From Bolinopsis microptera (taxonomy: Eukaryota > Ctenophora > Tentaculata > Lobata > Bolinopsidae), in NCBI RefSeq assembly GCF_026151205.1, contig NC_087074.1, forward strand, positions 9,279,726-9,343,725: DNA of 64,000 bases, given 5' to 3'. Of the stretch, positions 3,008-60,544 are shown in pieces. The position numbers and the translations under genes were made by a program. Under the pieces are notes generated by a model. That model searched no databases, had not been told where the DNA came from, and saw only the letters and a list, made by a program, of their open reading frames with translations. Position 1 is the stretch's first letter. Each line of letters begins with the position of its first letter.

Positions 3008-3077
3008 TTAACCTTTATTTTTCAGAGAACTGTTATGTTTTTTTGGGCACTTATCAGTCTCTTAAGATGTTTCTTTA

Positions 3078-4102: not shown

Positions 4103-4590
4103 TGAACGCAAATCCAAACAATGGGCCACCTCATGAAACAACCTTGAATTAATGTTCTTAGTGATGCTGTGACACACACAGTACAGTGTATATATCTTAT
4201 AGTCTGAATTTAAATTTAATCAGCTGTTGATAAAAAGTTCTTTTCCTTACAATTTGATTCAGGAAGGTGACAAGGGAAAGTACTTCAAATTGAATACGGG
4301 ATTAAGAATTGCAATTACAATGTCTCAATGTTCCTCGATATAATCTCCAATAAATTCAGAATTGCAATTAGTAAACTACCTACTGTACTAAAAACAAATA
4401 GTGTAACCTGTCATCCAACAGGCCCACTCTTAAGTATCCCCAGATAGTATAAACAATCTCCCACTCTCTCTAGCAATCTGTAAACAATTCCTAAACTATC
4501 CTCCTTGTAACCAAAACAGAGGTGTTAAAATGAACCCTCTGATAATCAAAACAGAGATGTTAAAATGAACTCTCTGCTCTAAACGGTTCC

Positions 4591-5247
4591 CGTACTGTAG
4601 TGCGACACGTACCCTAGTGCGACACGTACCCTAGTGTGAAACCTTCAAGATTTGACATTGCAATACAATGTTTTTAATGACAAGAGTGTAGTCATGTATG
4701 AGTAATGGGGTTAAATATAAAATCAAAATATCACAATATTCAATTCAAAATCATTGTTCCAACACACTTCAAATAGTCCATTCTGTCATAATCATCGTAG
4801 CAATCAATCACAGCGTTCAAGCGACGGTCGTAATCGGTTCACTTCTTCAGTCGGCGAGGATGTGGTTATCTGAGCATCTTCTGGTTGATCTTCCACTGGG
4901 TTAGATCCTGCTCCTTCTTCAGGACGTCGATAAATCGCCAGATAGTAGGGTTGGTGCAGCCCATCAAGGATCGAAAACCGTCGTGCCAACCCTCAGAATT
5001 GTTGGAACTTCTGGAAAGTCCGGCAATGACAGCATCCCGTTGATTCCAGATCCAGTGGGTGTAGAGGGGAGGGGAGGTTTGTGTTCCGACCCAGATACGT
5101 TCGTAGTAATCAGCAAAGGAATTCAGTTTCTTGAACCAGTAGTGCGTCCATGAATGAAGGTGATTGTAGAAGACATGTTGATCTTGTTCGATGCTTCGGT
5201 AGAATCGTCGTGACTTGAACTGACCCGAAGAAATTATTATCAGTGTA
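4591..5247 (-). mobile_element. FLYWCH/Mutator-like (MULE) transposon fragment, copy 1
   Basis: The left end carries a terminal array of the motif TAGTGCGACACGTAC (4597-4635), also found at both ends of the neighbouring element 8856-10165. On the minus strand from about 5240 to 4866 an ORF reads WTHYWFKKLNSFADYY, then NNSEGWHDGF and GCTNPTIWRFIDVLKKEQ. That is the C-terminal region typical of MULE transposases linked to FLYWCH zinc fingers. The catalytic core is missing, so it is an inactive internal-deletion derivative, and its right end is lost at the duplication junction. The 4103-4590 stretch before it is AT-rich, with nothing identified. Confidence 0.65.
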
Positions 5248-6618
5248 CAATCGTTCACTGAGGGATATCTTACCCCCCCTACAGAAGCCTGGAAAACCAA
5301 AAGGACCAGTTAAGAGTCTGCGTCCCTTGTGCCTTCTCAATGGAACTAGGAAAATCCTTTCCATGATAACACTCCAGCGTATTCAACAACAGATAGCAGA
5401 CTACACTGGGCCATGGCAGAATGCCTATAAATCAGGACACAGCTGCTCTAATATTGTCTGGACACAAAGGGTTCTTATTTCTGTTGTCAAGGAGAAACAT
5501 TGGGAGTTTAGTAAAATGGGGATAGACATGTCATCAGCCTTCGACACAATACATCGGTTAACTATCCTCAGGCTACTCGAAGATGCAGGATGCTCAGAAG
5601 ATGACATAAGACTAGTTAGATATCTGCTCGCTAACACCAAGCTCAGAATTAAGATCAAAAAGACGACATCGGGAGAGTTCGAAGTCACAATAGGAGCCTT
5701 TCAAGGTGACTGTTTGTCTGGCTCGCTGTTTACCATGTATCTAGCTGGAGCACTCTACCACCTTAGAGTTGTTGTTATACATCTACGCCCAAATCCCCCC
5801 ATTTCTGAAAGCTCCCTTCCTTTAGAATGGGAATATGCTGATGATGTGGACTTTGCTGATGAAGATGAGGATTCGTTACACCAGCTCCTTCCAATTTGCA
5901 AGGAAATTCTCTCAGAATGGAATTTGTTTGTAAATGAATCTAAAACCGAGTTTGTAAAGTGTTATCTGGCTGGAAGTAGTGAGAAGGACGAAAAAGGAGA
6001 ACCTCTAAGAAATAGAGAACCTTGGAGGAAGTGTGTGTCCCTAGGCTCTAAGCTATGTAGTAAAGAAGACATACAGCATCGTATAATCCTTGGAAATGTT
6101 GCATTCGAAAAATACAAGAAAGTTTGGATGCAAGGATCTAAGATTAATCTGAAGACCAAGATTAAGATATACGAAGCATACGTTACATCTGTTATGCTCT
6201 ATAACTGCAATAGCTGGGCTACCCCTCAGAACCTATTTGACAAACTTGATGCATGTCATAGAAGACACCTGCGTCAAATATTGAAGATGACTTATCCCAT
6301 TATTATCAGTAATAAAGCACTCTATGAACGCTGTGGTGTAACACCGTTGTCAGAGCGAGTGACATATGCTCGCTGGAAAATGCTTGGACATGTCCTTCGC
6401 AGTGACTGCTCATCACCAGCTCAGAGAGCCTTCAATTTGCTGTTAATGCGTTATTTACCATGAAAGGACGTGTTGGTCGACACCAAAGTAATCTTTTAAA
6501 GTTTATTATAAATGATTTGAATAAAAGAAACCTACCATTACGTGATATTAATGATCTTTATGATCTTAGGGCTACTGCCTCTAACAGAGTTTTGTGGAGA
6601 AAATTATTTACCTCATAA
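5248..6618 (+). pseudogene. LINE reverse transcriptase, 5'-truncated duplicate
   Basis: Duplicate of the 3' part of the LINE at 2-3007, starting inside the RT domain without the endonuclease. It keeps the YADD motif and the same two frame breaks (C7 near 5272-5278 and T3 near 6436-6438). The breaks therefore predate the duplication or were copied with it. Confidence 0.9.
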
Positions 6619-6688
6619 TTAACCTTTATTTTTCAGAGAACTGTTATGTTTTTTTGGGCACTTATCAGTCTCTTAAGATGTTTCTTTA

Positions 6689-7231
6689 CTATTTCGAGAT
6701 TGTTTTAAAAGTTAGATAATAATTAAGGAAGGACAAACCGGTTGAACATGTTGCGCTGTCCATGCATTCCCTTGATTCCACTGCTTCACCACCACAATCT
6801 TCTCCACCATTAGCTGGAGGTGGGTTATTGCAGGTTTTGGACCGGGTCTGTGTCCCTTTTCCACAACCTGCTGAGCAAGCACCCCAGTCGCTGTAGTCAC
6901 TCCACCCTCCATCAACTGAAAGTAATATGGTTTTAATTTAGTCAACAGAAAAATAATCACTCAACTCCCTACTTCATAATCATACTCCCTAAATAGTTCA
7001 GTTTAACTTCAATTATTAAAGTTGAATCATTATGTAAAAAAACTTAAAGCCTGTGGGAGAAATTAAAAACTTTATCATACTTGCTACGGCACATAAGGCT
7101 TCAAAAGATTTCTTCGCTTTTTCCAACTTTTTTGTTGTTTTCGTTATCTTTTTGTCCATCTTTTTACATTTTCCCGTATTTTCTGCACTTGCCAGACCAA
7201 GAGCGAGGATAACCAGAAGAGTCACTAACAT
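6689..7231 (-). CDS. Small secreted thrombospondin type-1 repeat protein, copy 2 (two exons, 125 aa)
   Basis: Same gene as 3078-3620, shifted by 3,611 bp: exon 1 is 7231-7081 and exon 2 is 6915-6689. Signal peptide, Lys-rich segment, splice sites and TSP1 domain are all kept. One visible coding change (6802 C for 3191 T) turns the GGKDC of copy 1 into GGEDC, a Lys to Glu swap inside the TSP1 domain. If the duplication is real, both copies look functional. Confidence 0.78.
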
Positions 7232-7524
7232 TGTCGCCAGCTTTTTAATAAATCAGCGGATTAAACCTCCGATAATAGCAGAACGGTAAACCTTTTATTT
7301 TGGAATGGGATTTCGATTTTAAAGCTTAATATATTTTGACGCTATCTAGGGCAGATAATGACTTAGACAATGCTTAGATTTGTGCTACCATATCTGCATG
7401 ATAAATGAAAACGTATATGACCAGATAAAAATTAAAAACTATGATAAAACAGTTCAAAATCGAAATTCAAGTTCAAAATAAGCTTCAGAGATTAAAGAAC
7501 GTAAAGAAGATATCATCAGCTCGG

Positions 7525-7713
7525 ATGTCGCAGCTGTTTCTTTTTCCTGTTCTTATAATTTATATGCTTGTCGCTTGTCATCCTAACTGCACAAATGTTG
7601 AATTGGCTGGGACTTCATGGCAGTCGTTCTGCCAAACTTCATGTCAACAAATGGGCTCATTAGTCTCGTGCCAAAATAGGAAAAATAAACAATTTCTCAT
7701 CAGAATTTACTAG
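7525..7713 (+). CDS. Candidate small Cys-rich secreted peptide, copy 2
   Basis: Duplicate of the 62-aa ORF at 3914-4102, with the same leader and five Cys. The same doubt applies about whether it is a real gene. Confidence 0.28.
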   Translation: MSQLFLFPVLIIYMLVACHPNCTNVELAGTSWQSFCQTSCQQMGSLVSCQNRKNKQFLIRIY

Positions 7714-8201
7714 TGAACGCAAATCCAAACAATGGGCCACCTCATGAAACAACCTTGAATTAATGTTCTTAGTGATGCTGTGACACACACAGTACAGTGT
7801 ATATATCTTATAGTCTGAATTTAAATTTAATCAGCTGTTGATAAAAAGTTCTTTTCCTTACAATTTGATTCAGGAAGGTGACAAGGGAAAGTACTTCAAA
7901 TTGAATACGGGATTAAGAATTGCAATTACAATGTCTCAATGTTCCTCGATATAATCTCCAATAAATTCAGAATTGCAATTAGTAAACTACCTACTGTACT
8001 AAAAACAAATAGTGTAACCTGTCATCCAACAGGCCCACTCTTAAGTATCCCCAGATAGTATAAACAATCTCCCACTCTCTCTAGCAATCTGTAAACAATT
8101 CCTAAACTATCCTCCTTGTAACCAAAACAGAGGTGTTAAAATGAACCCTCTGATAATCAAAACAGAGATGTTAAAATGAACTCTCTGCTCTAAACGGTTC
8201 C

Positions 8202-8858
8202 CGTACTGTAGTGCGACACGTACCCTAGTGCGACACGTACCCTAGTGTGAAACCTTCAAGATTTGACATTGCAATACAATGTTTTTAATGACAAGAGTGT
8301 AGTCATGTATGAGTAATGGGGTTAAATATAAAATCAAAATATCACAATATTCAATTCAAAATCATTGTTCCAACACACTTCAAATAGTCCATTCTGTCAT
8401 AATCATCGTAGCAATCAATCACAGCGTTCAAGCGACGGTCGTAATCGGTTCACTTCTTCAGTCGGCGAGGATGTGGTTATCTGAGCATCTTCTGGTTGAT
8501 CTTCCACTGGGTTAGATCCTGCTCCTTCTTCAGGACGTCGATAAATCGCCAGATAGTAGGGTTGGTGCAGCCCATCAAGGATCGAAAACCGTCGTGCCAA
8601 CCCTCAGAATTGTTGGAACTTCTGGAAAGTCCGGCAATGACAGCATCCCGTTGATTCCAGATCCAGTGGGTGTAGAGGGGAGGGGAGGTTTGTGTTCCGA
8701 CCCAGATACGTTCGTAGTAATCAGCAAAGGAATTCAGTTTCTTGAACCAGTAGTGCGTCCATGAATGAAGGTGATTGTAGAAGACATGTTGATCTTGTTC
8801 GATGCTTCGGTAGAATCGTCGTGACTTGAACTGACCCGAAGAAATTATTATCAGTGTA
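8202..8858 (-). mobile_element. FLYWCH/MULE fragment, copy 2
   Basis: Duplicate of 4591-5247, with the terminal motif array at its left and the transposase C-terminal remnant (about 8851-8477) on the minus strand. It directly abuts the next, separate MULE. Confidence 0.65.
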
Positions 8859-10165
8859 CTGTAGTGCGACACGTACTCTAGTGCGACACGTACCCTATAA
8901 GTGCGAAACCTCCAAGATCGACACTGTCGCAGTAGAGTAGGTACGCTACCTGGATAGTAGTGCGACACGTACCCTAGTGCGACAGAGAATTTTCAAGGCC
9001 GAAACTGTCGCACTACAGTGCGCTGGACTGTAGTGCGACACGAACTAAATTAGTGCGACAAAACACTTTACACATTCAATAAACATTTTACTTTCCATTT
9101 TTAATGACAAGAGTGTAGTCGTGTATGAGTAATGGGGTTAAATATAAAATCAAAGATTGCAATCACAATATTCGATTCGAAATCATTGTTCCAACACACT
9201 TCAACTAATCCATTCTGTCATAACCATTCTGTCATAATCATTCTGTCATAATCATCACAGCGCTCAAGCGACGTTCGTAATCAGTCCACTTCTTCAGTCG
9301 GCGAGGAGGTAGTTGTCTGAGCATCTTCATTCTTCTGGTTGATCTTCCATTGGGTTATATCCTGCTCCTTCTTCAGGACGTCGATAAATCGCCAGATAGT
9401 AGGGTTGGTGCAGCCCATCAAGGGGAGAGGAGGTTTGTGTTCCGACCCAGGTACGTTCGTAGTAGTCACTAGGCAGCAAAGGAATCCATCTCCGAGGGAA
9501 GGGTTGCTTTCAGCTGCGTCCAGGCCACAGTAGTGTTGTTCGTCAGACTGAGACGTCCGGAGCAGGTCTTCTCAGGGCATCGCCAGTAGGTCTTGTCGTC
9601 GCGATTCTTATCCAGGCAGTAGCGGTATCCGTCCTGGATAACGTTTCTTGGACCAGTAGTGCGTCCAGGAATGAAGGTGATTGAAGAAGACATGTTGATG
9701 TTGTTCGATGCTTTGGTAGAATCATCGTGACCTTATTTATGGCCCAAGCATATGAACTTGTTATCCCAATCGGAGATATACATACGATGCGTGTGATAGG
9801 AATGAGGATCATATGCTGCTTAAGAGTTACCCAGTGGATCACACACTGCATACGTGGCTTGAACTGACCAGAAGGAATTATGATCAGTGGATAACTTCGA
9901 AACACGTGATGTGAACCGACGAATCGTATTCGCAAGATCACTTCAAAATAAGTGACGTGAACCGACCCGACGAATCACTTAATGGTCCATAAGAAGGATA
10001 GGATGTGACCAGAACTTGGAAATAAGTCAGGATATTTTGTCGCACTAGAGTACGCTACCTGGATCGTAGTGCGGCACGTACTGTAGTGCGACAGAGGGCG
10101 TTTTTGTCGGACTTCGCACTAGTCGAGTACGTGTCGCACTAGAGTACGCGTCGCACTACAGTACG
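8856..10165 (-). mobile_element. FLYWCH/MULE non-autonomous element with matching terminal inverted repeats
   Basis: The left terminus (8856-8893) and the inverted right terminus (10127-10165) match over about 38 bp, both built from repeats of TAGTGCGACACGTAC. Further copies of the motif lie at 8974-9060 and 10045-10140, giving a subterminal array. On the minus strand 9693-9469 encodes a FLYWCH-like zinc-binding segment (GYRYCLDKNRDDKTYWRC, then TCSGRL). 9469-9281 encodes a shortened MULE C-terminus (GCTNPTIWRFIDVLKKEQ). The region between these parts, including the DDE core, is deleted. FLYWCH domains bind DNA and commonly sit before MULE transposases. I could not identify a target-site duplication. 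Confidence 0.7.
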
Positions 10166-11335: not shown

Positions 11336-14300
11336 TCAGCTGCTTCTGTGACCATTCTCCTCAGATTTAGTCGGGCTGCTATTGTCCACAATGTCTATCC
11401 TGCAACTTCTGCAGTCCATTTGCTGGCAATCCCCCGTTGGGCACCGTCCGTACACATTCTTGTATGAGTCAGCCCAGTTTCGGCTCATCATGTTGCCAGT
11501 GTCTTTAACTTCACCCCCGTTTTCGTTTACTCGGCTGTAGTCCTGATTAACTGCTTCTTGGGACCTTTCGTGTCGCGCCTAATTAATAGCGAATGTTACA
11601 CCACTGATATTTAAGAAAAGGAACTTAGAAATGTTTCGAAATCTTATAACGGAGGAAGAAAAACATGCTGGTCTTAGGTCTAGAATTGATGAAATAAGAC
11701 GTTTGTTATAAAGAAACTTGTTTTAAAGAATCTGAACCTAAATGTTTGTTTAACATTTATTAATTAATTATACATTTATTGGGCTCTCGGCCAGACTATC
11801 GTAGCTGGAAGTATTACTGGTTCTTCTTATTTCACTAACATCATCAATTCTGTCGTGTATGCTCGTCTGCTGAGAGTGGAGAGACTGGAATTTATTTTGG
11901 AGATTCCTTCGTTAAAACATTAAAACATATTTGTAAGAGATTATGTTTTTATAAAACAATTAAAAAGTTGGTAGACGAAAATAAATAAGTTAATCATTAT
12001 AGCATACAAATTGTATTGCACTTTTATTCATTCTCTGACGAATCTTTTTGACATTTAATACTTCTTCAAGGAGCTCTTTTGAGTGACGTTATTATAAACG
12101 TTATATAGGACTACAACATACTTTTTCATCCCAATTGTTGTTATGGTTTTTGGTGTTACAGTTGTTGCTTTTATGCTCTTCCGCCACTTTAGCATGATGA
12201 TTCTTGAGTTCCTGATTTTGTTGCTCCTATGGGTTTCTTTATTCAGAGGTTGCTGAATATTCTTGAAAATTCATACCCTTATAAAATAATGATAGAAGTG
12301 ATCAGTGGGATCAGCATCACGGTAGACTCCAACTTGGCTAAACATACACGGTAGTTAAAATTTTAATTTCCAGCTGAATTATACGCTGACCACATCAGAA
12401 GGTGTATGTTTAGCCAAGTCCACTTTACCTACCTGTTCTAGTTCAGCTATAATTAGGCTCGCCTACTTAAGTCGTTAAATGAGACCCTTGTAATTGCAGG
12501 CTCGCCGCCAAGTGAGACCCTTGTAATTCATAATCAGTTATCTTAGTAAAAGGCCAATGAGTGCTGAAACGTAGATTATTTCATTTAGTGTTCACTAGTC
12601 ATTTGCCTTGTTTCACTCTGTCTGTCGAGAGCCGTGATGCTCCTTACTGAACACTACAATGTTAAAACTCACGTCTGGCCTTCCGAGATCTATAAAATAG
12701 AGAGGAAAATAAGGCATCAGAAAACGAATGAAAAATGAAACCACCCTTACTTTCACTGTAGTGTAAAGTTTCTCGAATTTAGTCATGATAAGAGGCATTG
12801 GTATAGCAATGAGGGGTAGCCCTATCAGAGCTAGAATAGACCCGACTATCTTTCCGAATGTAGTCTTCGGAATCATATCACCATAGCCAACTGTAGTGAT
12901 AGTGACCTGTAATAATGAACACATGAATATGGAAATCTGAAATAAATGGCTGACGTAATTAGTTTAAAAGCCGTCTAATCGATATTGAGTATCTTAATCT
13001 AATTGTTGTTGAGACTTTACCGAAAGATGCAATATACTCACAGCCGCCCAGTAACTAGAGGCGAATATGCTAACATATTTCGTTCTATTGTTTGTGCATT
13101 CCCGGTGAAACTTGCAATCGTCAGTTCCTATCCAGGAGTCGTTGTATAGACAAGTTTTAGTTTCAATGTCGTACTTCCCACATGGCGGCTGCTCTGCGAA
13201 ATAGACGAATCCTGCGATTTGATGATCAGTTGGAGATCAGATGTTTGGAAATAAGTCTTCTCTTAGAGAGTTTTCTGCACTACAATACGTGATAGGAATA
13301 CTGGTTCTATGTTAGATGGAGAATTTGTAAGCCGATAGGTACAAATATCAGCTAATTTATTAATCTATTTTTATCTGAAGCCGTTAATCGGAATGTATTG
13401 TAAATATTTAGAACCTGCAGCCAGGAACATAATGAAGATAATAACTCCAACGACGTGGAGGAGATCTGAGAAACTCTGTCTGAGAGCCAGACCCAGGCAA
13501 TACAGCAGAGTGGAGTGTCGGGCTAAATTGAATAGTCTCAATACTCCTATAGCTCGCAGTGGCAGCTGAAACAGATTACAAAGGTGTTATCGTTATTTTA
13601 ATTGGTAATAACACCGCTAATAGAATAGCTGTCAATGCTCCGTTTAGCAAACACAGATTCCTCTCTTCTTTAATAAGCTTGTTAATAGTTGAACAGCTCC
13701 GCGGATAAATCTTAAGTGAGATTCAAGAAACGGAAGCTGTGGCATTGACGGAAAAGAGACGAATAATATGGGCTTACCGGAGTAGGATTTGAGACTTTAT
13801 TCCAGTGTAATATGTTGTCTATTATAACTGCGACAACAATTATTGCATCCACCATCGACATAAAAGATTTGATGTATTTATACTTTTCCTCGGCGACAAC
13901 CAAGCCGGCAAAGTAGTGAACTGAAAAATTCGAATCATTGCTTTTTGACTTTGACTGCTATCGTAGTAAAAACTACGCGACAAAGCATATTTAAATAAAA
14001 TCTAGTGTTTCTATACGACAGTGAAATCCAGAACTTACTCATAATATCACTCATAAAACTTACTCATTATCCACAAGACGCACATCCCCTCTATAACACT
14101 CCCGTAACTGAAAATATTTTACATCTTTTTCATTTAACACTACAAGTAACAAGAATAAACTAACAAATCAACAACTCTGCTGATTTAAACACTGGGTAAA
14201 ATAATACTAAAACATACTAAAACATACTAAAACATACTAAAACATACTAAAACATACTAAAACATACTAAAACATACTAAAACATACTAAAACATACTAA

Positions 14301-17300
14301 AACATACTAAAACATACTAAAACATACTAAAACATACTAAAACATACTAAAACATACTAAAACATACTAAAACATACTAAAACATACTAAAACATACTAA
14401 AACATACTAAAACATACTAAAACATACTAAAACATACTAAAACATACTAAAACATACTAAAACATACTAAAACATACTAAAACATACTAAAACATACTAA
14501 AACATACTAAAACATACTAAAACATACTAAAACATACTAAAACATACTAAAACATACTAAAACATACTAAAACATACTAAAACATACTAAAACATACTAA
14601 AACATACTAAAACATACTAAAACATACTAAAACATACTAAAACATACTAAAACATACTAAAACATACCAAAACATACTAAAACAAACTGAAACATACTAA
14701 AACATACGGATAAAACAAAAGTATACTAACGGTTCTGGTATGAGCCCTTGATCGTGGTCACTGTCGTGACCGGACACTTCGTCCTCGTGGCTCCCCACAG
14801 ATTGTTGTGGTTGTTCTCCCTCTGTTTGGCCGGTTGTGATGGTAGATACCACGTGACAGAACACGAAGAGTAAGGTCGCTACCAGATCACAAGCCATCAC
14901 CACCTGAACACAGGATATTAAGTGTTAGCTGGGTGGTATTAGTGGCGGTGTTGTGTACTTACTTTCAGCTTTAGTAGATAACTTTGGATTTAAAATAGTT
15001 TATAAATAGCCCACGACTTATAATTATAACTTGGAGAAATGTGATTTCCTGTTCGGAACAGTAGTCGCATGTTGTCATGCGGCTAATGTTCCGATTTATG
15101 ATGATCACGTTCATGATGATCACGTTGTTGCGAAACACTAGCTATTTAGTCTTATCTAAAAAGAGCTTTTGACTCCTGGGTCACAACAACGTAGAAATTT
15201 TGAATATTCAACGTAAAATTAAAAAGCCCCTAAGCTATTATGCTCGACATGTTTCCGTTATTTTCCACGGCCCTAAAACTCACACTGAGGCCCTCTGCTA
15301 TAATCGACCGTTTAAATAAAAGAAAAATAGGCCAGGAAATAGATGTGAAATCTGGTGGGGAGGTGAAGCATAATTTTTTACATGTGGCAGCGATTCTGTG
15401 GTTTGATTGGTCAATAGTGGAAGCTGATTGGTTTATTGCTGTCACGTGTCAAAACATATACATTTAAATTATTAGTAAAAATAGTTAAAACAAAAGGAAA
15501 TGCTGATGGAAAAGAGGGCTGTGGTAATTTCGGCCCAAAAATGCATGACAACTGTATATGGTTATCGTCATAAAATTTGCCAAATCAGTTTGCAAATGCC
15601 ACTCAGAGATTTCAAACGAAACAAAAGGATCCTCAATATTTCTCCTAAAAATGTGTCTGCAGCTTCACAGAAACAAACCTAAGCAGCATTTAAGTTCAAT
15701 ATAACAAACTTACTGACGAACTTAATGAGTTTGGTGCCAAATCGACCAGTCACTCCTGGATTAGTCATAAGATTAAGTCTTATGAAAAGTTGATGTTTGT
15801 AACTTGAGTCCCGTGTTTATTGTTTATAACGTGAGTTCCACTTTTCAAATTGATGATGATTGAATGATCTGTTTTGGTTTGTTTAATGGTTGAGGGTGAA
15901 ATAATAACCTGAGTTAGAATGAGTACAGTTGTTTAATGGTTGAGGGTGAAATAACCTGAGTTAGAATGAGTACAGTTGTTTAATGGTTGAGGGTGAAATA
16001 ACCTGAGTTAGAATGAGTACAGTTGTTTAATGGTTGAGGGTGAAATAACCTGAGTTAGAATGAGAGAGGCCGCACAGCTGCACACCACGACACATCTTCG
16101 AGAGTACTTTATCACGAACAATCATCAAATTACCTTTCCTACCTTGTATGTCCAAGTTCTGCCACCGAATATTGTGCTGTAAAGTTTTGTATACCGCACG
16201 TTACTCGGCGGGTATATGATCTTTTTCCGTTCTGTTGTCTCATTCTTGTACTTCCACTGCATTGTTCCACTCTTGTTCAGGGTTGTTGTTCGTTTGTTGT
16301 TGTTTGTATTCGCCACTATCCGAATTGAATCGTTTGGTATCTGTGGAAATTTCATAGGTGATGTCATGTCGAAAATTTCTTCGCAGCTTTGAGTTTGATA
16401 GGTATGCTAGATTTGATAGGTATGAAACGGTGGCGTTCTTTGCAGAGGAGTAAGGTCACTCAGAGGTCATAATCTCCCAACATAGTCATAACAAACGACA
16501 TATGCGCTTTTTATATTTCAAAAGAAGCCAATGAAAGTAAGAATTACCGCAGTTCTTTTATTTAGATAAATATAAAACATATGTTATACAAGCCGCACTC
16601 TATGACTGTCTGTGTACAAATGAAAAAACATGCAAGTAACCTCAACTAACCTGGAAAAAGTCCACTTCCTCGATGAAAGTGCTGCAGTACACGTTTTTCG
16701 GCTGACTCAGCAGTCCCCTGCTCTGGTAAAAATAGAGAATGGCCTCAAAACTGAGCCTACATCTGTTAGTGAATACGTACGCTTGTCTCACGGGGTCCCA
16801 GAATAATTCTTTTTGGTTCGATCCCAGGAGAGTGTTAGGGTATCGTTCTAGTGTCTCCTAAAATTAGGGTCGGGTAATGTTACATAATACACGATTATAC
16901 AATATACGTACCATGCAAATACCTCAGATCCTCGCCTTAGAGCCATTTTTGTTATAAATTGCTAATGTATAATTTATGGGATAGCTGTCTCAAAAATAAT
17001 TTTCTGATTTTTAGCATATTGCAGAGTTGATGACAGAAAGGAATTTAGACCTGCGTTCGAATGTTTGACGTAGCCTATTTTCCTCTCTAGAAATTACCTT
17101 TAGGGTCTTGAAAGGCTCTCCCGAGACGATGATGTGAACGAAGTTGAACTGGTTTGTCACCACACTCAGGGTCGTCTCCTGCTCCGATACAAAGTCGTCT
17201 ATCGCAATGCTACCCACCTCCTCGATCATGACGTTCTGATTATCGTCAGCACCTTTAAGGAAGCCACCTATCTTCAACCAATCGACAGTCAAATACTCTG

Positions 17301-21281: not shown

Positions 21282-24200
21282 TCAGTGTCCCTTCTCAGAG
21301 CAAGAAAGAAGGGGGTGGTATGTTCCGTCCTTCTGACAGAAGGTTCTTTGAGGAGCAGAGTGGTGGTCACAGAAGAGCATGACTGAGTTTCCAGGGAGGA
21401 CTGGATGGTGGGGCTCCGTGTAACCACCCTCTACCAACAAAACAGGACACCCTGCGGTTATATTATCTAGGTTAAGTGAGCTGCAAGAAGCTAAAGCGTC
21501 ATGATAAAATTGATTTGGATCACAATATTTCCAGAATAACAGAGTCCTGTTTTACTTACATCTTGTAGAGTTCTCGATTTCGTTAGATTGAAAATTACTG
21601 CATAATTTACACGATCTTTTACAATTGTAAAACGCTTCAGTAGGATATTTTAAGCAAAAGTCGGTGTCAATTTCAATGTTCTGTTTGCAACGCGTCAGTT
21701 CGTAATCTGTACAATCTTCTGAACTGGTCACTGAGGAATCTGATGTTAAATAAGGTGGGAGCTTAAATTTAAGATTGCTAAAAACATTTATCAGATGAAT
21801 TCCGTGAGTGTGTGTGTGGGTAATTACTCCCGGGCTACTATTCGATGACCCAGTAGAGGAATCTACGTATCTCTCCTAAGTAATAAGTATCCTAATATAA
21901 CTATAAGTAAGTTTGCAACAAGCAAATTTCGTTAAAGAAATTTGTCCGATTCTCCTCCTCATGCTAAATTAAAACCGATGACTAAAGAAAATAAAATGAT
22001 CACATCACGATCAAAGAATGGCAGGTCTATAAACTCACAAGTAGATCGCCCTCTCCGTCTAAAAATGCGAGGCTGGGGGTTGCATGGGCGGGGTTTAGTG
22101 CGGTGACCCCTGGTTTTAGGTATCGCTGCACCTGTTACCGTGTCCACACACCAACAATCCCCATTGTCACACTGCATCTGTAGAATGAATTGGAATTGAG
22201 ACTTTAGGCATGCAACAGAGTGGTAATCGCTAACTTTAGAATTTGTTAAATAAGGAATTTAAACTTTCGCATATATGTCGATTAAGCTTTAACTCTTTAA
22301 TAAACTAAAATTACCTCATGAAACTCGCCACGTTCATTGCACCTCGGGGTAAACGCATCAAATGGCACGATATATCCGTCAAATCGGGAGTTGTATACCG
22401 GTCTGCCACTCTGGTAGTTGAGACAAGTGGAGTTTGACATGACCACTGGTCGGCATGTGCCTGGAGCATGGTTGTATTCTCCGGACTCCCCACATCTTAG
22501 CACTGCTTTTCCATCCAGTTCGTGTCCTTTATAGCAGGTTATCTAGGAATTAAGGTTCGTAAATTTATTGAGGCGAAATTCAGTCGGACTACAACGTTGT
22601 ATGTACGGACACGTGACACGTGACGCGTGTGACGAGGCAGCCTAGCTTGATAAGGCAGCTGCAGTTGCTAAACTCCCAACTTGTACGCAATAGTAATCAT
22701 CTGCAGAGACATTTTTAATTTACTCCAAGGTCTAACCTGTACAATGGAACCAGTAACAACAGGGCCAGTAGGGAAAGAAGCACCATTCTCCACTACAACA
22801 TCAGCACAGGTGGTCGTGTCACCACAGAATCCACACGTTTTAGCACAGTTATCCAGCATGAAGTTCTTGAAGAAGGAGCAGTATCCAGCTACTACAAATC
22901 GGGCACAGTTGTCTCGTCTGTCCCGGCAGGCTTGTTTGTCAGGGATATTGAGGTTCGGGCAAGTTCCACATGACCTGTGTTTTGAGGTGATATTCAGTTT
23001 TACAATTACTTTCGCTTGAATGGTACTTCAATTTAACTTTTACCTAGTCACTTTCATTGTCATGATTCAGTTTTACTATTCGATTCAAACTATACATTTG
23101 TGGACCAATTAATGAAAGGCTAAAACATTCGAATGTCTTACGACCGTTCGGTTCTAAACCATGACTCTATAACAATCGTCTACATATATAATATGTATCA
23201 ACAATAAATCGTTATTATTTCACCAATAAGAAGCTAACCTTGGGCAGAACTGTACCATATAAGGAGCTCCAGATAAACATTGACCTGCTCTAGCGAAATC
23301 TTTACACAGTGGGCTAACATCGTTACAAGAGTAGAAGTCCATATCCAGGAACTCTTCAGATACTTCGTTAACTGAGTAAAATTGGGTTCAAAATATATAC
23401 ATTTTTATCAATTACTCTATTTCCAAATATATTATCAGTGCAATTATATAACATAAGAATCTGATCTAAATCTAGATGATATCATTAAGGAATATTGCTG
23501 GATCGTAAAACGTTAATTTTTTGAGTCTCAACCTTGTCTTTTGGACCGTTTGTTGTCTTTAGTTTTGCTATAACTCTGGAACACATCCTCCATGGTGCTG
23601 CCTCGACCGTACAGCTTTCCTTTGGACCGTTCAGAGGGGAAATATTTGTCAGCTGGTCGTCTGTTGTACTCGTATGGAGCTTAAGGAAGGGGTAGAGGAT
23701 ATTAAATAATTTAATTTTGATGACAGTGGATACCAACGAAACAGGATTCCTAAGGCAAGGGTCATTTTAATGGTAAATAAACTTTTATTGTAAAGACTTG
23801 CGAAACTTACTGCAATCAGGTCTCTCGCCTGAGGCATGAGTAAACCTAGTGTCTTTAATCTCCTTGCCGTTGAGATTTACACAGAAACAGCAGCAGCGGT
23901 TGCATTGCATGGGTAGATACTGGCCCCTGATTATTTCAACTTTATTTGAATGACAAGAAATGCGAAAAGCAACATTCAGGTCATCTTTGTATTACAAAAA
24001 ATAAATAAAGATACCATTGACTTTAATAAACGCTCCGTCGATCCTCTAGTTTATTATAATGAGTTGATAAACCTTACTAAAACTAATAACTGTTACTACC
24101 TAGTATCACACTCCGGTACAAGCTCATATTCCGGGATAATCCAGCCCACTTCAGGTAGCTGTATTGGCTGAGACTTCCGGTACTTCTCCCTCTGACACTG

Positions 24201-27200
24201 AGTCATCCTGTATACTGCAAAATGCGACTGTTTAGTGAAAGTCAACCCAGTGCAAACTGGAGAGTGGAGGTGGACTGAACTTATCCGCTCGGCTTAGACT
24301 CTTGTTAAAATGTATTTCTTAGAAACTGTATGGAGAGCATATATAGACTGCTTCATTTAACTAAAAACATACTAACACAAATTGTCGGTCATCTTGGTAC
24401 ATTCTCCTCCCGGTGAGTAATACCCATCTTTCTGACAGGTTAGAGTTCCTCGTCCCAGCAAATAATAACTATCTTCACAGGAGATAAAGATCTTGAAGCC
24501 GGGTGGTACTGGCATTCCTGGATCCGTGTACCCGTGTTCTATGTCACTTGGAACTTGGCATACTGCCATGAAGGTTTGCGACATCAGCATATTTGAATTT
24601 TTTTGAACATTCGAGTATACCACCTTCTAATATTGAAGCAACTGTCTCGATATATAACGCCATATTCACAGTTTTGATTGATACACATTTCAGTTCAAAT
24701 CGATAATCTCTTCAAAACGACAAAAGTTAGACTCACTCGTTGGTGAACACATTTCACAGGTTTTCTTGCAGTTCTGTAGCATGTAAAAGGGTTTGTTCTG
24801 ACACTGACCTCTGCTCTTGTGTCCATCGCATGTTTGTTTGTACTGGGATATTCAAGATATGAGACTCATTCAAGGAAATAATTTCTGACCCTCAGTTTCT
24901 TCCGATAGTTAAATTAGACCACATAAAATATAATAGAAAGGATTAATTTTACCTGATGATCAGAACAGTCGATGTCTTTATCCGGGTCGTAGTTGTCCCA
25001 AAGTGCTTTAACCTCCGCAGACAGCTCCCCCTCGATGTAGGTTGTATCTTCCAGGTCGGCTGCTTTCTGGACTATATCTTTCACCTGCACGGAGTATCTT
25101 CATTGGGACGGCAAATTTGAATCAACCGCAGGTTAGTCGTCATGAAAACTTTTAACATTCTAAATTCCTGAATCAACTGAAAATGTCAGCCATTTAGGCC
25201 ATACTGTTTGTCACACGGCATAATGCTGTTATTGCATGTTTGTGGGGAACATTATACGACTAACTCTAACCTCAATATCCGATGCACACTCATCCTCCTC
25301 TAAATCTATATTGCACAGGAGTTTCTCCTCTTCCAACATAGCCAATAACTCTTCCCCCTTCTTCTTTTCCTCGGCTCTTTTCTTATCTTCCTCCCGCTTT
25401 TTAGCCTCCTGGCGTTTTTTCTCACCCTCTTGACGCAACTTTATCTTTTGATTCTCCTCGTATGTCACTTGGTATGGGAAAAGAAGTTGAAATTATGAAT
25501 TGTACGATATCTAATTATCGAATGAGTTCAATGTTTGACTAATCGAATCATCAGTTATTGTACTTGTAGTTACTTACGTTACTTTTTTTACAGACTCCGG
25601 TCCCAGAGATACGAACTTTCGTCATACATTTAGATAATGATTCCAGGTATAATATCAGGTAGTAGAGACTAGGTAGGACAAGTGAAATTACTACTGTTTA
25701 GGAGGAAACGCGAGCTTTCAGTGTGCTACACTTTCATCAGGCTCAAATTATTTGTTATATAGTATTAGTAGTGCCTAATAGTATCAAAATGAAAGTGTAG
25801 CACACTGAAAGCTCGCGTTTCCTCCTAAACAGTAGTTTCACTTGTCATACCTAGTCTCTACTACCGGATATTATCCCTGGAATCATTATCTTATCATGAG
25901 ACTGATAAACAGTGAACCTCTCCAGAATCTCATACATTTAGATACTCACACAAATTAAGTTGAGAGCACATCTCACAGGTTTCAGGACAGTGGTATCTCA
26001 TATACCGGGTCTGGGACTGACACCAGGACTTGTGTCTGTATGTCCGACATTTGTCAGGTCTTATCTTATCTAGACACAATCCCTCTCCCACTGAGAGGAA
26101 TGCTTTATCAATATCTAGTTGTCATGGTGATCGTGATCGTGTTCAGTCGGTGCACCTCAAAATTATAGCCGCCCTATCTGAGATCTTGAAATGTTCAATC
26201 TCTTATTCTTAACTACGAATCATACCTTCAGTATGTAATGATCTCATGTGTCGCTTCCAAATTCAGAAAACTACTTCATAATATTAAGATACAAATATCG
26301 CAAGTAAATACAACTCGTATTTACCTATTTTCCCGAGTGTTTGTTTCTTTGTAATCAGCCACCCTACGTTACTTGCTAAACCTCCGTAGTCTGAAGAATT
26401 TGTAATTGGTTTTTCAATTGATTAACTAAAATTAATCTGCAAATACCATTTCAGATCTGAGTACTGGTGGGGATGTGAACCATTTTTTCTGACACGTGAC
26501 ATCTATAATTAACCAACCAGTTACTTTTTAACCATCTTTCAACATTGCCCGATCCAGAATTAAGTTTCACGAAGACTTTTCTGTGATCACTTTAAGTCTT
26601 ACCTATTTGAGGTAGAGGTAGAGGTTGAGGCTGATCGAGTTGGGGTCGTGGTCTAGGGCGGATCTTCTTAACAACTTTTGGCTTGATTCTTCGAACTTTG
26701 AAATGAAGCAAATCAAATTCAACACGCAGTGTAATATAAGGGTCAGATAAAATTTAGAAAAATGCTTACTTCTCTAGCTTATATATCGTGATAACTAGGA
26801 AATCATTGTATCAGGTGTCTTCTTCAATGGCATTATAATGGCCACCATCAGATTTAGGAATATCCAGCAGCGTTATTGGGAGTAAGACTTCATCACTGAG
26901 GAGAATGGACCAAAGCCAATACGGCAATAGAGCGATAAGGAAATTCTATGCAATGAGTGTTTTCTTAGATTTCTTAAGGCCATTTTTGATTTTGCCCGAT
27001 TTGATAATATATTTATCAAATAGGAGCCGATACGGTGCTTATGTTTTGAATATCATATTGATGGCCATATTTGTCATCTAGTCGTTGTCATAAAAGATGT
27101 ACAATAAGCTCACTTATGATATTTATATCAATATCAATGTGACCTTCTATTTAGGTCAACTAGTTTGTAATTTTAAATATGATTTATAACAAGAATAAAA

Positions 27201-30200
27201 ATCTTTCAATTTTCTAATTCAATTTTAAATCAATCTTTAACCAAAAATATTTTCCAATGTACATTCATTAAAACTCCAATAAAATCGATAAAAATGCAAA
27301 ATGTGCAGTGTCAAAGCTTTTTTATAATCTATATACAAAGAAAATATGTCATATCCGTTTCAAACGTCCGTAGTAGGCCCCTCCAACTCTGAAAAAATTG
27401 GATGTTAAATGATTTTTTCAGAGCGAAGGTTTCATGCAAACCTTGATCGGTAAAATCACCATGATGTACTGAGTATGTGCACAGAAACAGCTAACGTTTC
27501 TGAAGTAGACTAGGAATAGGAACAAGGAAGACATGCAAGTTGATGAAATGAAGTATTTTTATTGCTTGTAATGTTGGAGGGGCCCACTTTACCCTGACAA
27601 CGCAAATAAACAACATAGAACTTGAAAGAACTTACTCAACAATCAACAACTATTACTCTGTCACAAACACGAAAAATGCTTCAAGAATACGTTTTGGGAG
27701 GTTTACTTACATTCGTCGGCGGGCTCAGCATCTGAAATTTTAAGAGATTAATGACAATTTCCTTTTTAATCCGTTTACAGGACCAAGACACTTTATTTTC
27801 ATGAAAATGGTTTCAAGCACAATATTCTACACACACTAAAACCAACCAGCTTCTCGCTTATTTCTCCTTCTCTTCTTGTTTCGTCTCCGGGCGTCCTTGG
27901 TGTTTTCTTCTACCTCCTCTTCCATGATAACTTCTTCGACAACCTTCTCAGGTTCGCTAGCAACCTCTGTCTCTACAGCAGCTACTTCCTCTTCGCTCTA
28001 TTAAATGAGATTCACTATTCAAAATGATAGCTTAGATTCAATTAGTTTATTATTAGAGTAACTGTTAGTCCCGATTGAATATGATCATTTTATTATTTTC
28101 ATTATTATTATTATTACATCTCCTTCAGTGTAGTAGTATGAATTATCGAATCCATCTCCATCATCATAGTAAGCATCTCCTCCAGAGGCATACCCATCAC
28201 TGCCACCTGCATAGTAACCATCATCACCAGCGTAGTAACCATCATCACCAGCGTAGTAACCATCATCACCAGCAGCATATCCATCACCACCTGTAGCATA
28301 TCCATCACCACCTGCAGCATATCCATCACCACCAGCAGCATATCCATCACCACCGGCAACATAGTATCCATCACCACCAGCAGCATATCCATCACCACCA
28401 GCAGCATATCCATCACCGCCAGCAGCATATCCATCACCACCAGCAGCATATCCATCACCACCGGCAACATAGTATCCATCACCACCAGCAGCATATCCAT
28501 CACCACCAGCAGCATATCCATCATCCCCAGCAGAATATCCATCACCACTAGCAGCATATCCATCACCACCGGCAACATAGTATCCATCACCCCCAGCAGC
28601 ATATCCATCACCACCGGCAGCATATCCATCACCACCAGCATCATAGTATCCATCACCGCCAGCAGCATATCCATCACCACCAGCAGCATATCCATCACCA
28701 CCAGCAGCATATCCATCGCCACCTGCAGCATATCCATCACCGCCAGCAGCATATCCATCACCACCAGCATAGTAACTATCGTCACCTGCAGAATATCCAT
28801 CATCACCAGCATAATAACCATCATCACTAGCAGTATATCCATCGTCAGGAGCAACATAGTAATCTTCGCCGCCAGCGACATAGTAATCATCGTCACCTGT
28901 AAAGTGGGGCTAGGGTGAGCATATTTTAAATTGATATGTGGCGGTTAAGCAACATATCAATTTGCTCATTGGCCAAAAGCAATCGAACGAATGGCATTTA
29001 GGGGACAATATATATTAAATGGTCCTGACCTGAAGTTTCGTATCCAGCATCCTCACCAGCTGATCCGCTGTTGTCATAATTGTAGTCATAGCCAGAGTCG
29101 CTATTGTCGTAGTTGTAATCGTAACCTGAATCGCTGTTGTCATAGTTGTAATCGTAGCTCGAGTCGGCATCTCCGCCAGCAGAAGTTGATCCACTACTGT
29201 CATAGTTGTAATCGTAGCTGGTTTCACTGTTGTCGTAGTTGTAATCGTAGCTGGTGTCGCTATTGTCGTAGTTGTAATCGTAACTTGATTCACTATTATC
29301 GTAGGTATCATAGTTGTAACCATCCGATCCTGAGTTGCTTGCACCCCTTTCTAGAGCTAATCTCTCGTAATAATCCTTAGCGGATCCTGGAGCACCTGAT
29401 AAAGAATAAAGCTGTAGTTAATGGTACTTTTTACAGTCAAACTTCTATCATCATGCTTTGATTCATTTGATCCCTGGATGTAGCAGGCCTACTTTCTTCC
29501 CAAAAACGTTTTTTTGAGCTGCTAGTAGACCAATTATGCCGTCTAAAAATGTTGGTCCTCGAATAAGGATATGATTATTATTTTCTTACAGCTGATGTAT
29601 TCATGTTTTCCCTGGATCCTTGTTCCTTGGATCTCAATCCCACGATACATGTCAGCGCAGAAGGTTTCTCCCTTTCCTCCGTCATACTGGATCTCTTTGT
29701 AGTTGCCTGAGCGGAGAGTTTATTAATAAAATATTCTTATTTAATTGTCTTCGTGACGTTGGGAAATTTATGAATTCATTCATAACCATCACCAAGATGT
29801 AGCCAACTTTGGCCAATATTAACTTCGCCTGTTAAGGTTTCTTTCATTAATTCTAAAACTACCCATTAAGTATAAACTTACCCTCGTAATCATCACATTG
29901 AGGCACGTAATGTGTGGAGACTTGAGGGATCACGTATTGAGCATTAACATAGGTCGGCTCCATGGCTGATTTAGCGGCTCTTTGACAAGCAGTCTCTTCT
30001 GGTGCTGGGTAACGGCTATCATCTCCACCTGTAATATCCCTCCCTGATTAATTGTATTTTAACTACTTTGTTTATTTTAAATATGTGAGTAACCTGTTAA
30101 GTTAAAGATTCTCCATTGGCAGTGGGAATTGTGCTGATGGTGTGAAAATCTTCTTACTTACACTCTTTATACAACTACTTACCGATCTCCTCGCATCTAG

Positions 30201-31162
30201 CAGAACCTTCCATTTCTCCGAAAGCACCACAGGTCAACTGCCCGTATCCCATGTTTTTGAAACCCTCGTAACAGTAAACGTTGACTGTTGCTCCGGCGGG
30301 GATCATGATCATCTCAAAATCGGTCCAACCGTTCTCCACATCAGGTGGCGTACAAACTAACAAAATTGGAGATTCAGATAAATTAAGTTGACTGCCACTT
30401 GCTTTTGAGGTTTTCTCACAGGTTTCAATTGGAAGAAATTTCTCAGATTTTTGTTGGCACCCATCTAATATCATTCTGATACCAAAATCTGTAAATAAAG
30501 CAATTTTAAAAGCATTGTTTTGAACTATTCTAATCTGTAACTCACGGGTAGCGCCACACCAGCCGCAAGTTTGCGCACAGTTCATGACCATGACAGCAGA
30601 GTATTTCTCACAGTGGCTCTGGGTCTTGTACCATTCACAGTCCTTGGTGGAGCAAGTGTCCCGGCAAAGCTCCATACTCTCCGGCTCTCGTTCTGTCAGA
30701 AGGGTGTTTGTTAAGGGTGTGATAGATGCTTGAGGAAATGATGCAGCTTAAAGAGTACAAAATATTGATTTCATAGCTGCAGGCAACTGGTAAAAATGAG
30801 TTAAGTTCAACTTAGTTCATGAATAATGTGGATATGTTTTATTAGCATGGCTCTCACGACAGTTAGACAAAACCACTCGACTAGAGTGAAAGTTAAACAG
30901 CTACCTAGAACTTTCATTCACACACGGTAGTAAAATATAAACTGCTGGTACCTGGTCTAGGATCTACAGCAGTACCGGGTTCACCCCCGTCTCCACCTCC
31001 ACCTCCACTACAGAACCCACAGCTTTTAGCACACATCTCTTTGAGAGTATCCCCATAACTCTCACAATACCCGGCCTCTTTGTAGTAGCTGCAATCTGCG
31101 CTGGTGTCGGAGCATCCACTCACCAGAGCGATCTGAAGAACGAACAGCACAAACCCCCTCAT
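21282..31162 (-). CDS. Secreted modular matrix-like protein: ShK, sushi (CCP) and thyroglobulin type-1 domains around Tyr/Asp/Gly repeats, 23 exons, 1,423 aa
   Basis: Exons: 31162-30952, 30692-30546, 30356-30183, 30028-29882, 29706-29590, 29395-29030, 28896-28118, 27997-27847, 27731-27711, 26695-26603, 26069-25950, 25467-25271, 25084-24953, 24842-24737, 24562-24379, 24207-24100, 23926-23811, 23371-23239, 22974-22737, 22542-22315, 22177-22039, 21739-21560, 21466-21282. Phases close. An in-frame TGA precedes the ATG. Order: signal peptide; ShK 1 (aa 17-51); ShK 2 (about 79-114); CCP 1 (about 121-176); Tg1 1 (about 190-265); DYNYDNS repeats (266-387); GGDGYAA repeats (388-647); acidic then basic linker; RP/PQ-rich linker; ShK 3 (about 742-770); charged E/K/R helix (776-841); ShK 4; CCP 2; Tg1 2; ShK 5-6; CCP 3; Tg1 3 with canonical CWCVD; ShK 7; CCP 4. 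It is probably extracellular or structural, which is inference. Acceptors of the last two exons are ambiguous (21739 or 21730; 21466 or a nearby AG). Splitting into two genes is possible but not needed. Confidence 0.82.
25633..25890. mobile_element. Foldback MITE inside a matrix-gene intron
   Basis: Arms of about 105 bp (25633-25737 and 25789-25890) are near-perfect inverted copies around a loop of about 50 bp. A 15-bp direct repeat (TCATACATTTAGATA) occurs at 25622-25636 and again at 25930-25944, bracketing the hairpin and about 40 bp more. The element lies between the ShK 3 exon and the charged-helix exon. Confidence 0.85.
28118..28896 (-). repeat. GGDGYAA-type coding repeat exon
   Basis: A single 779-bp exon of the matrix gene encodes roughly 35 back-to-back units of six to eight residues. 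The commonest is GGDGYAA, with GDDGYYA, GGDGYYVA and similar variants. At DNA level the array is a degenerate 21-bp minisatellite. The product is very rich in Gly, Asp, Tyr and Ala, a composition seen in structural and adhesive proteins. It ends in FDNSYYYTEGD before the acidic linker exon. Confidence 0.9.
29030..29395 (-). repeat. DYNYDNS coding repeat exon
   Basis: The exon following Tg1 1 in the matrix gene. After a short lead it repeats a 10-residue motif of the type SSYDYNYDNS/SGYDYNYDNS about seven times, broken once by a Gly/Ser insert. It is strongly acidic and Tyr-rich, and differs in sequence from the GGDGYAA exon that follows. Confidence 0.88.
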
Positions 31163-35150: not shown

Positions 35151-35285
35151 ATTAATCAGTAATTTAATGCTTTGCTTTTACTTTTTAGCACGCGCTACAG
35201 TTATCTCTTGCTATAAAGGTTCTAAAGTTACTGAATTCTAATTTTAAACATTGAAACTTTCAGTTGATGCCTTTTCTTCTTTGCC

Positions 35286-36269
35286 ATGATGTTTCCGAAC
35301 AGCACTAATGAAGATTTTGCTATAAAGGATGAAGCAGTGCGGTACATTTGGGCAGGATGGTTCATCTTTGTTCTTAGTTCATCACTGGTTGGAGACACAA
35401 TCATTCTCATTGCTTCCATTAAGTACAAGGCTATCAAACTGCATAAAATGATGGTTGTTATTATTCAGCACATAGCAGTAAGTAACCTGGCAACTTGCAT
35501 CGCTGAGTCGTTCCCACACTCTGTCTCATTGATAACTAACAGGTGGATTTTTGGTACTACTATTTGCTACATTAAACCGTATGTCTGCGCCTTTATTTAC
35601 CAGGCTGGTATCTTTCTTGTCTGTGGTATGGTAACCTGCAAGTTACTGATCCTAAAATACCCTGGAAGATCTCTCACCTGGTCTGCAGGAAGAGCTCACA
35701 AAATATGTTTTTTTATCTGGCTGCTGGCCCTTTACTGGCCAATATCCTATCTCATTATTGATAAAGAGGACATGTCATTTGACTACTACAGACCATACAC
35801 ATGCACCTACGAGTTCAATTCTACCACATGGAAGTTTTTGCAGCCGGCAAATTTTGTGATCTTTAATGTCGTTCCAAATTGTATTATCGTTGTAACAGCA
35901 GTTATGATTCTGGCAGTGACTAGAAGAGTGACACAAGAAGCGCGACAGGGAATGAACTGGCAAGGTGTTATGACAGTCGTCTTGACAGCAGCTGCATTCA
36001 TCATCTCTTACCTTCCTATGGCAGTTTATCATATCCTCAAACCATTTGTGGAGAAAGATGCGCCTGGCCCGTTCAGGATTACTTACTACAGAGTAGCTAA
36101 TTCCGTACTTAACATCAATGTTATCGCCAACTTTTACATTTACTGTCTTTCTATAAGCAGTTTCAGAGATTTCCTTCGTGTCAGAGTTCAGCGAATAACT
36201 TCCTGCTCCTTCAAAATACATCTACGCAACGGTGGGCTTTTTTATAGCAATTCCTTTTACTGCAATTAA
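35286..36269 (+). CDS. Rhodopsin-like (class A) G protein-coupled receptor, intronless, 327 aa
   Basis: Seven hydrophobic segments fit a class A receptor. The short N-terminus has an N-glycosylation site (NST). TM1 contains FVLSSSLVGDTIILIASIKY; TM2 begins VVIIQHIAVSNLA; a Cys (CYIKP) comes before TM3; extracellular loop 2 has a Cys (YTCTYEFNSTTW). TM5 is FVIFNVVPNCIIVVTAV; TM6 ends FIISYLPMAVYHIL; TM7 is NSVLNINVIANFYIYCLSI. It would signal through G proteins at the plasma membrane; the ligand is unknown. Two hallmark motifs are altered: the DRY site reads TCK, and NPxxY reads NFYIY. The start ATG matches the position in the truncated copy. The family style resembles large lineage-specific GPCR sets in cnidarians. 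Confidence 0.85.
   Translation: MMFPNSTNEDFAIKDEAVRYIWAGWFIFVLSSSLVGDTIILIASIKYKAIKLHKMMVVIIQHIAVSNLATCIAESFPHSVSLITNRWIFGTTICYIKPYVCAFIYQAGIFLVCGMVTCKLLILKYPGRSLTWSAGRAHKICFFIWLLALYWPISYLIIDKEDMSFDYYRPYTCTYEFNSTTWKFLQPANFVIFNVVPNCIIVVTAVMILAVTRRVTQEARQGMNWQGVMTVVLTAAAFIISYLPMAVYHILKPFVEKDAPGPFRITYYRVANSVLNINVIANFYIYCLSISSFRDFLRVRVQRITSCSFKIHLRNGGLFYSNSFYCN

Positions 36270-60416: not shown

Positions 60417-60544
<128 letters not shown>

Follow-up and report, generated by a model that had tools for sequence, protein, structure and literature searches.

The 64,000-nucleotide stretch of the ctenophore Bolinopsis microptera analysed here (contig NC_087074.1, positions 9,279,726 to 9,343,725, in the following the window) contains on its minus strand a gene encoding an apparently secreted protein of 1490 amino acids (AA), in which seven ShK, four CCP (sushi) and three thyroglobulin type-1 (Tg1) domains are combined with acidic tyrosine-rich repeats. 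Read from its sequence, the protein may be a secreted precursor that is cut into modules, with the repeat-bearing piece serving as a cross-linkable structural or adhesive polymer. This reading is tentative and is given a probability of about 0.4. The domains are familiar; the combined architecture was not found described, since full-text literature searches aimed at the combination met no earlier description of ShK, CCP and Tg1 in one protein. The preliminary description of this DNA likewise knew of none.

Gene model and domain architecture

The gene model runs from an ATG at 31162 to a stop codon that ends at 21282. These are exactly the limits given in the preliminary description, of which the closing phases also stood, while its 23 exons and 1423 AA are now replaced by 24 exons and 1490 AA. 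Exons were anchored by peptide fragments, and phase-compatible GT/AG pairs were scored. All 23 introns are of the GT-AG type, the phases close throughout, and the sole in-frame stop is the terminal one. Thirteen of the 23 junctions were top-ranked by splice scoring, and the other ten (1, 2, 3, 6, 7, 11, 15, 16, 22 and 23) were picked by eye at lower-ranked or unlisted sites so that domains were kept whole; junctions 7/8 and 15/16 lie beyond the four best listed splice options. Because of these ten junctions, some linker residues are uncertain.

Summed over the exons, the model frame contains one stop and the remaining frames contain 40 and 144, and the G+C content is 0.479 in exons and 0.337 in introns (38.5% in the window). 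The six 33-base repeats of exon 6 vary in 2, 1 and 9 columns at codon positions 1, 2 and 3, with 4, 1 and 20 minor bases, respectively (column permutation, P 0.00016), a third-position bias as under selection on the protein. The same test on exon 7 showed the same lean and was not significant (P 0.10), and since this exon is open in other frames too, its openness proves little. Overall, the gene model is well-supported.

The 14 domains follow the order ShK1-ShK2-CCP1-Tg1a, tyrosine-rich repeats, ShK3-linker-ShK4-CCP2-Tg1b, ShK5-ShK6-CCP3-Tg1c, ShK7-CCP4, which is one of 120,120 arrangements of seven, four and three domains. A threefold unit ShK-(ShK)-CCP-Tg1 followed by ShK-CCP had been proposed before; this order holds, and the unit is in fact stricter, with both ShK domains present each time. 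For the Pfam scan, the pieces AA 1-300, 736-1115 and 1116-1490 and ten isolated domains were used. The long pieces alone miss ShK2, CCP1, Tg1a, ShK7 and CCP4, and for this reason the isolated domains and profiles trained on the same genome were needed. These own-genome profiles were built from 16 CCP pieces and 13 ShK domains of other genes; nine of the 16 CCP pieces stem from a single locus, L029, where Pfam does not pass them, and two of the nine were loosely cut.

The profile search against Pfam ShK, Sushi and Thyroglobulin_1, suggested in the preliminary description, placed ten of the 14 domains, including all three types, over the curated cut-off (ShK1, ShK3 to ShK6, CCP2, CCP3 and Tg1a to Tg1c). 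ShK2 and CCP1 stay below it, and ShK7 and CCP4 have no Pfam match as isolated domains. With the own-genome profiles, all 11 ShK and CCP domains score above all 500 full shuffles. When the cysteines were kept (n=500), no shuffle reached CCP1-4 or ShK1, 3, 4, 5 and 6, one reached ShK2 and five reached ShK7. The putative assignment of ShK7 and CCP4 rests on the cysteine pattern and the genome-trained profiles.

All exons lie on the minus strand. Module 1 starts with exon 1 (30952..31162), which encodes the predicted signal peptide, a signal-like start by hydropathy, and ShK1 (34 bits with Pfam ShK). It is followed by ShK2 in exon 2 (30546..30692; 15.6 bits with Pfam at a cut-off of 20.9 bits, 19.4 bits with the own-genome profile) and CCP1 in exon 3 (30183..30356; Pfam Sushi 20.2 bits at a cut-off of 20.7 bits, own-genome score reached by 0 of 1000 shuffles). 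Tg1a is split between exon 4 (29882..30028) and exon 5 (29590..29706), the latter without the QC and first CWC cysteines; the joined piece scores 35.4 bits with Pfam Thyroglobulin_1 (E 7.1e-9). The repeats behind this module are encoded by exon 6 (29030..29395), with 11-residue repeats of the SYDYNYDNS type, and exon 7 (28118..28896), with about 30 repeats of 7-8 residues of the GGDGYAA type and a 3' end picked by eye. A linker that is first acidic and then basic and carries RNKR at AA 692-695 (exon 8, 27847..27997), a microexon of 21 nucleotides (exon 9, 27711..27731) and a basic, proline-rich linker (exon 10, 26603..26695) lead to module 2.

Module 2 consists of ShK3 in exon 11 (25950..26090; 24.0 bits with Pfam), a highly charged linker in exon 12 (25271..25467), ShK4, which starts behind linker sequence in exon 13 (24953..25084) and ends in exon 14 (24737..24842; joined piece 25.5 bits with Pfam), CCP2 in exon 15 (24377..24562; Pfam Sushi 32.2 bits) and the two halves of Tg1b in exons 16 (24100..24214) and 17 (23811..23926). 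The joined Tg1b piece scores 37.9 bits with Pfam, and a genome search also finds exon 17 at 27.6 bits. Exon 18 (23533..23679) is a linker with RSKR at AA 1111-1114. In module 3, most of ShK5 is encoded by exon 19 (23239..23371; ShK5 piece 34.2 bits with Pfam), whereas exon 20 (22737..22974) contains the end of ShK5, ShK6 and the first half of CCP3; it includes the best ShK stretch of a 50.9-bit piece and was found at 40.6 bits in the genome search. The second half of CCP3 (CCP3 piece 26.9 bits with Pfam Sushi) shares exon 21 (22315..22542) with the first half of Tg1c, which ends in exon 22 (22039..22177; 46.4 bits with Pfam Thyroglobulin_1), followed there by a basic linker with RRGR at AA 1356-1359. 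The C-terminus is formed by the putative ShK7 in exon 23 (21560..21739; own profile 12.2 bits) and by the putative CCP4 with the stop codon in exon 24 (21282..21490; own profile 21.1 bits, reached by 0 of 1000 shuffles), which is 36% identical to the exon 15 piece.

The cysteines follow these borders: 78 of 80 lie inside the domain stretches as drawn, if a surplus cysteine in ShK2, another in CCP4 and two in Tg1b are included. Six cysteines with a spacing near 6-8-10-3-2 together with a Pfam score over the cut-off were found in ShK1, 3, 4, 5 and 6. The ending 8-10-3-2 occurs in six of the seven ShK domains, with one extra cysteine in ShK2, and the spacing in ShK7 is 7-10-10-3-2. CCP1 and CCP2 have the spacing 26-13-11 in common. 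Although all three Tg1 domains are well above the Thyroglobulin_1 cut-off of 20.6 bits, they differ in their cysteines, with four in Tg1a, which has lost the middle pair, eight in Tg1b, which has a CCC run, and six with the CWCV pattern in Tg1c.

In the hydropathy profile, the six highest 19-residue windows all start at residues 1-6, and nothing else exceeds 1.14. A signal-like N-terminus without another strong hydrophobic stretch points to secretion, and the domain types are extracellular ones, in agreement with the secreted or extracellular protein proposed before. No catalytic domain was found with Pfam in AA 1-300 and 736-1490.

Relatives in the genome and module duplication

Genome searches with two queries, one covering module 2 and everything behind it and the other covering module 1 and exon 6, gave identities of at least 70% at the gene's own locus only, and the gene thus appears to be single-copy. 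Domains were also listed genome-wide (the best 150 of 235 candidates for ShK, the best 150 of 817 for CCP and 62 of 62 for Tg1); each exon was read separately in these searches, and weak domains, for example at L029 and L030, are missing from the lists. In a co-location test of 76 ShK, 33 Tg1 and 128 CCP places, ShK is joined with Tg1 at this locus only, among the matches listed. Tg1 is joined with CCP at one other locus, C2:22.038 Mb, again among the matches listed. There, a Tg1 and three CCPs lie on one strand within 2 kb, but other cysteine-rich exons intervene and no ShK is among the matches listed.

ShK-CCP pairs occur elsewhere, at L029 (C3:10.37 Mb; 33%, E 2.2e-11) and at C7:4.276 Mb (L030; 34% and 30%). 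The pair of L029 is closest to that of module 3 and belongs to a ShK followed by about ten CCP-like units; unlike in the gene described here, no Tg1 was seen, and the CCP units were recognised by their cysteine pattern, as Pfam passes the ShK only. L030 combines a signal peptide, ShK and CCP in one secreted-looking frame and is the best match to module 1 outside the locus (30%, E 2.6e-7), but has a single ShK (by eye; Pfam lists Sushi only), a single CCP, no Tg1 and no repeats.

The preliminary description had proposed that the protein grew by duplication of a module. The repeated order and the relationships of CCP1, CCP2, CCP4 and Tg1b agree with this, whereas those of CCP3, Tg1a, Tg1c and four of the seven ShK domains, as well as the ShK-CCP pair and the introns of module 3, do not. 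In a comparison of 27 CCPs, CCP2 and CCP4 match each other best and the best match of CCP1 is CCP2, while CCP3 is closest to L038. Tg1b matches Tg1c best (93, with L015 at 92), Tg1c matches L032 best (97), and the top three matches of Tg1a are all other genes. Of the seven ShK domains, only three (ShK2, 3 and 6) match another domain of the gene best, and a relationship of the ShK copies by position, which would have shown that modules were duplicated, was looked for and not found. The ShK-CCP pair scores are 148 for modules 1 and 2, 134 for modules 1 and 3 and 117 for modules 2 and 3, and 164 for module 3 and L029. The intron layout of module 3 also differs, since CCP1 and CCP2 are encoded by one exon each and CCP3 is split and has an exon in common with Tg1c. 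The order argues for the duplication of a four-domain unit, for which the sequence support is mixed. Probably, an ancient ShK-CCP pair that is found in several genes became linked to Tg1 in this gene and was multiplied, and change or exchange followed later.

Two large single-frame stretches of Tg1 repeats were observed in the same genome at L035 (3762-6047, minus strand) and L032 (57-1883, plus strand), with seven and five scored stretches, respectively; some of the repeats at L035 lack the middle cysteine pair by eye.

The Tg1 signature is shared with thyroglobulin, saxiphilin, p41 and the tick thyropin, and the middle pair is lost in Tg1a as in one aligned thyroglobulin repeat. To our knowledge, none of these four proteins has a ShK partner. 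The passages cited here of PMC10889554 report domain 2 of saxiphilin without the middle Tg1 bridge. Polydom/SVEP1 and the cnidarian polydoms are described in the cited part of PMC12549020 as large secreted multi-domain proteins with CCPs. The protein resembles them in these traits but has no vWFA, EGF, HYR or pentraxin domain, as Pfam passes ShK, Sushi and Thyroglobulin_1 only in the scanned parts. In a coral paper, a figure legend places ShK and TY in one domain box for proteases and agrin-like proteins; the legend does not state a shared protein. The cnidarian proteomes named in the preliminary description as a search field should not be searched first, since the source is a ctenophore.

Processing, cross-linking and rival explanations

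The preferred reading, a precursor cut into modules with a cross-linkable piece, starts from the repeats and the linkers. Behind the first module lie about 380 residues of acidic Gly/Asp/Tyr/Ser/Asn repeats. This tail (AA 267-648, 382 residues) contains 73 Tyr, 80 Asp+Glu and 3 Lys+Arg, and 63 of the 73 tyrosines are within two residues of an acid. Each linker between modules contains one basic site, namely RNKR (692-695), RSKR (1111-1114) and the minimal RRGR (1356-1359). The motif RX[KR]R occurs three times compared to 0.34 expected from whole-protein shuffles, twice in inter-module linkers and once inside ShK6 (1177); the third inter-module linker has RXXR only.

The signal peptide would direct the secretion of a precursor of three ShK-ShK-CCP-Tg1 modules and a final ShK-CCP, and proprotein convertases would cut it at the linker basic sites (695, 1114 and 1359). 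The released pieces would be module 1 with its tyrosine-rich acidic tail (AA 17-695, net charge -101), module 2, module 3 and ShK-CCP. Outside the cell, the tail would be cross-linked, by dityrosine formed by a haem peroxidase or by conversion to 3,4-dihydroxyphenylalanine (DOPA), into a matrix, mucus or adhesive. The ShK and CCP modules would bind partners, and the Tg1 domains would shield the material from papain-like proteases, the class on which Tg1 inhibitors act according to the cited passages of PMC10889554.

Enzymes of the kinds required occur in the same genome. At L055 (C5:17795000-17804500; 3370-7021, plus strand), a full-length haem peroxidase is encoded in one frame of 669 residues (540.8 bits), directly downstream of four open frames that contain ShK and lie on the same strand. 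Three of these frames score over the cut-off, and the fourth, which also has a TSP1 piece, scores 18.2 bits. We infer that the ShK frames and the peroxidase frame form one gene. L033 (4568-6034) and L037 (5247-7457), both on the minus strand, encode papain-like cysteine proteases that have three and eight scored ShK stretches, respectively, at their C-terminal ends. The genome further has eight match rows each for P_proprotein, the convertase-type domain, and for tyrosinase. ShK on an extracellular enzyme is familiar from SKPO-1 and MLT-7 of Caenorhabditis elegans, both of which carry it, and L055 is built like SKPO-1; these are enzymes, whereas the scanned parts of the protein described here contain no catalytic domain. 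As stated in the cited passages of PMC6368334, MLT-7 cross-links cuticle collagen together with BLI-3, and SKPO-1 is needed for pathogen resistance, with mutants that suggest a role in the cuticle.

Several points weigh against this reading. The composition of the linkers may explain the basic sites, with P 0.28 for RX[KR]R in AA 648-735, 0.08 in AA 1067-1128 and 0.19 for RXXR in the third linker (AA 1349-1369). RXXR is also common: the protein has it at nine places, of which four are within domains and one is in the linker between ShK1 and ShK2. Although the genome encodes the enzymes, nothing connects them with the protein described here. The acidic tyrosine repeats could alternatively be sulphated, bind calcium or be mere spacers. 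Furthermore, the colloblast and tentacle gene sets of Mnemiopsis are not enriched for low-complexity sequence, as far as the cited part of PMC6278862 goes.

Part of this evidence favours an uncleaved extracellular matrix protein, the type of protein named in the preliminary description. The repeats would then be elastic or hydrated spacers separating binding modules, and the basic runs heparin-type binding sites. This is a possible if improbable explanation. The domain types are typical of matrix proteins, 16 of the 23 introns are in phase 1, as is usual for exon-shuffled extracellular proteins, and the statistics of the basic sites are weak within the linkers. It is opposed by the convertase sites, strict or minimal, that all three inter-module linkers contain.

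The Tg1 domains themselves raise the possibility of a thyropin-like precursor of protease inhibitors, whose Tg1 domains would inhibit papain-like proteases, perhaps the organism's own ShK-tailed ones, with ShK and CCP aiming them. Thyropins act on proteases of this class by their loops L1-L3, and subtype 1A is marked by three disulphides. Such proteases are present in the genome, the six cysteines of Tg1c follow the CWCV pattern, and the Tg1 part of the CCP3-Tg1c piece matches the p41 fragment (1icf, E 1.3e-4) and the tick thyropin (8r6t, E 0.0012). However, the best PDB matches are thyroglobulin repeats and not inhibitors, Tg1a is without the middle disulphide pair, Tg1b has its odd CCC run, and the large tyrosine-rich tail is left unexplained. 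An inhibitor precursor is therefore considered unlikely.

It is also quite unlikely that two or more neighbouring genes were wrongly joined, for example across intron 9, which at 1015 bases is the longest and lies between the repeats and module 2. Besides the position of this intron, the ten junctions picked by eye would fit such an error, as would the polyadenylation signals: AATAAA occurs 11 times inside the locus, every time in an intron, and the stop is followed on the minus strand by about 680 bases in which neither AATAAA nor ATTAAA was found. On the other hand, all phases close, and apart from the first ATG, crude hydropathy shows no signal-like start on the minus strand inside the locus except in off-frame readings of exon 7 and in a reading of 23 residues at 22786. 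A toxin-like role, as a secretion of tentacles or colloblasts, is very improbable and was rejected as the main reading. It was considered since tentacle gene sets repeatedly contain ShK and Tg1 domains: in the cited part of PMC6278862, sushi is over-represented among colloblast candidates of Mnemiopsis, Tg1 occurs in the colloblast set as well as in the tentacle set, and the tentacle set includes ShK. The same passages, however, report no significant overlap with toxin domains and do not name the gene, and proteases and a peroxidase of the same genome carry ShK as well.

Window features and significance

Besides the gene, several features of the window were observed. Intron 11 contains a sequence resembling a miniature inverted-repeat transposable element (25610-25910), whose two strands match each other at 85% and which has at least 115 match rows in the genome (best 40 of 165 candidates). 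Positions 1651-5250 and 5262-8861 form a tandem duplication of 3611 bases with 99.89% identity, which carries a reverse transcriptase frame on the plus strand (RVT_1; Pfam on the first copy) and, on the minus strand, what looks by eye like a small gene for a secreted thrombospondin-1-like protein, with start codons at 3620 and 7231. A 10-base unit is repeated 50 times at 14204-14707 (98% matching), an open frame at 35268-36269 on the plus strand encodes a rhodopsin-family receptor (7tm_1, 50.1 bits), and an unbroken run of 127 C at 60418-60544 is possibly an assembly or sequencing artefact.

The inter-module basic sites, the tyrosine content and the co-occurring ShK enzymes are new here and absent from the preliminary description. 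They allow a wider and distinctly speculative idea, which we consider improbable: ShK could be the common address of a self-made extracellular material, with this protein as the tyrosine-rich substrate released by convertases, cross-linking by a ShK peroxidase, remodelling by ShK-tailed cysteine proteases and restraint of these by the protein's own Tg1 domains. This would be partly parallel to the nematode cuticle, and the material might possibly be the colloblast glue. The gene itself encodes what appears to be a secreted tyrosine-rich protein of unusual build, and a ShK-based material kit, if true, would belong to a lineage regarded as the sister group of the other animals.

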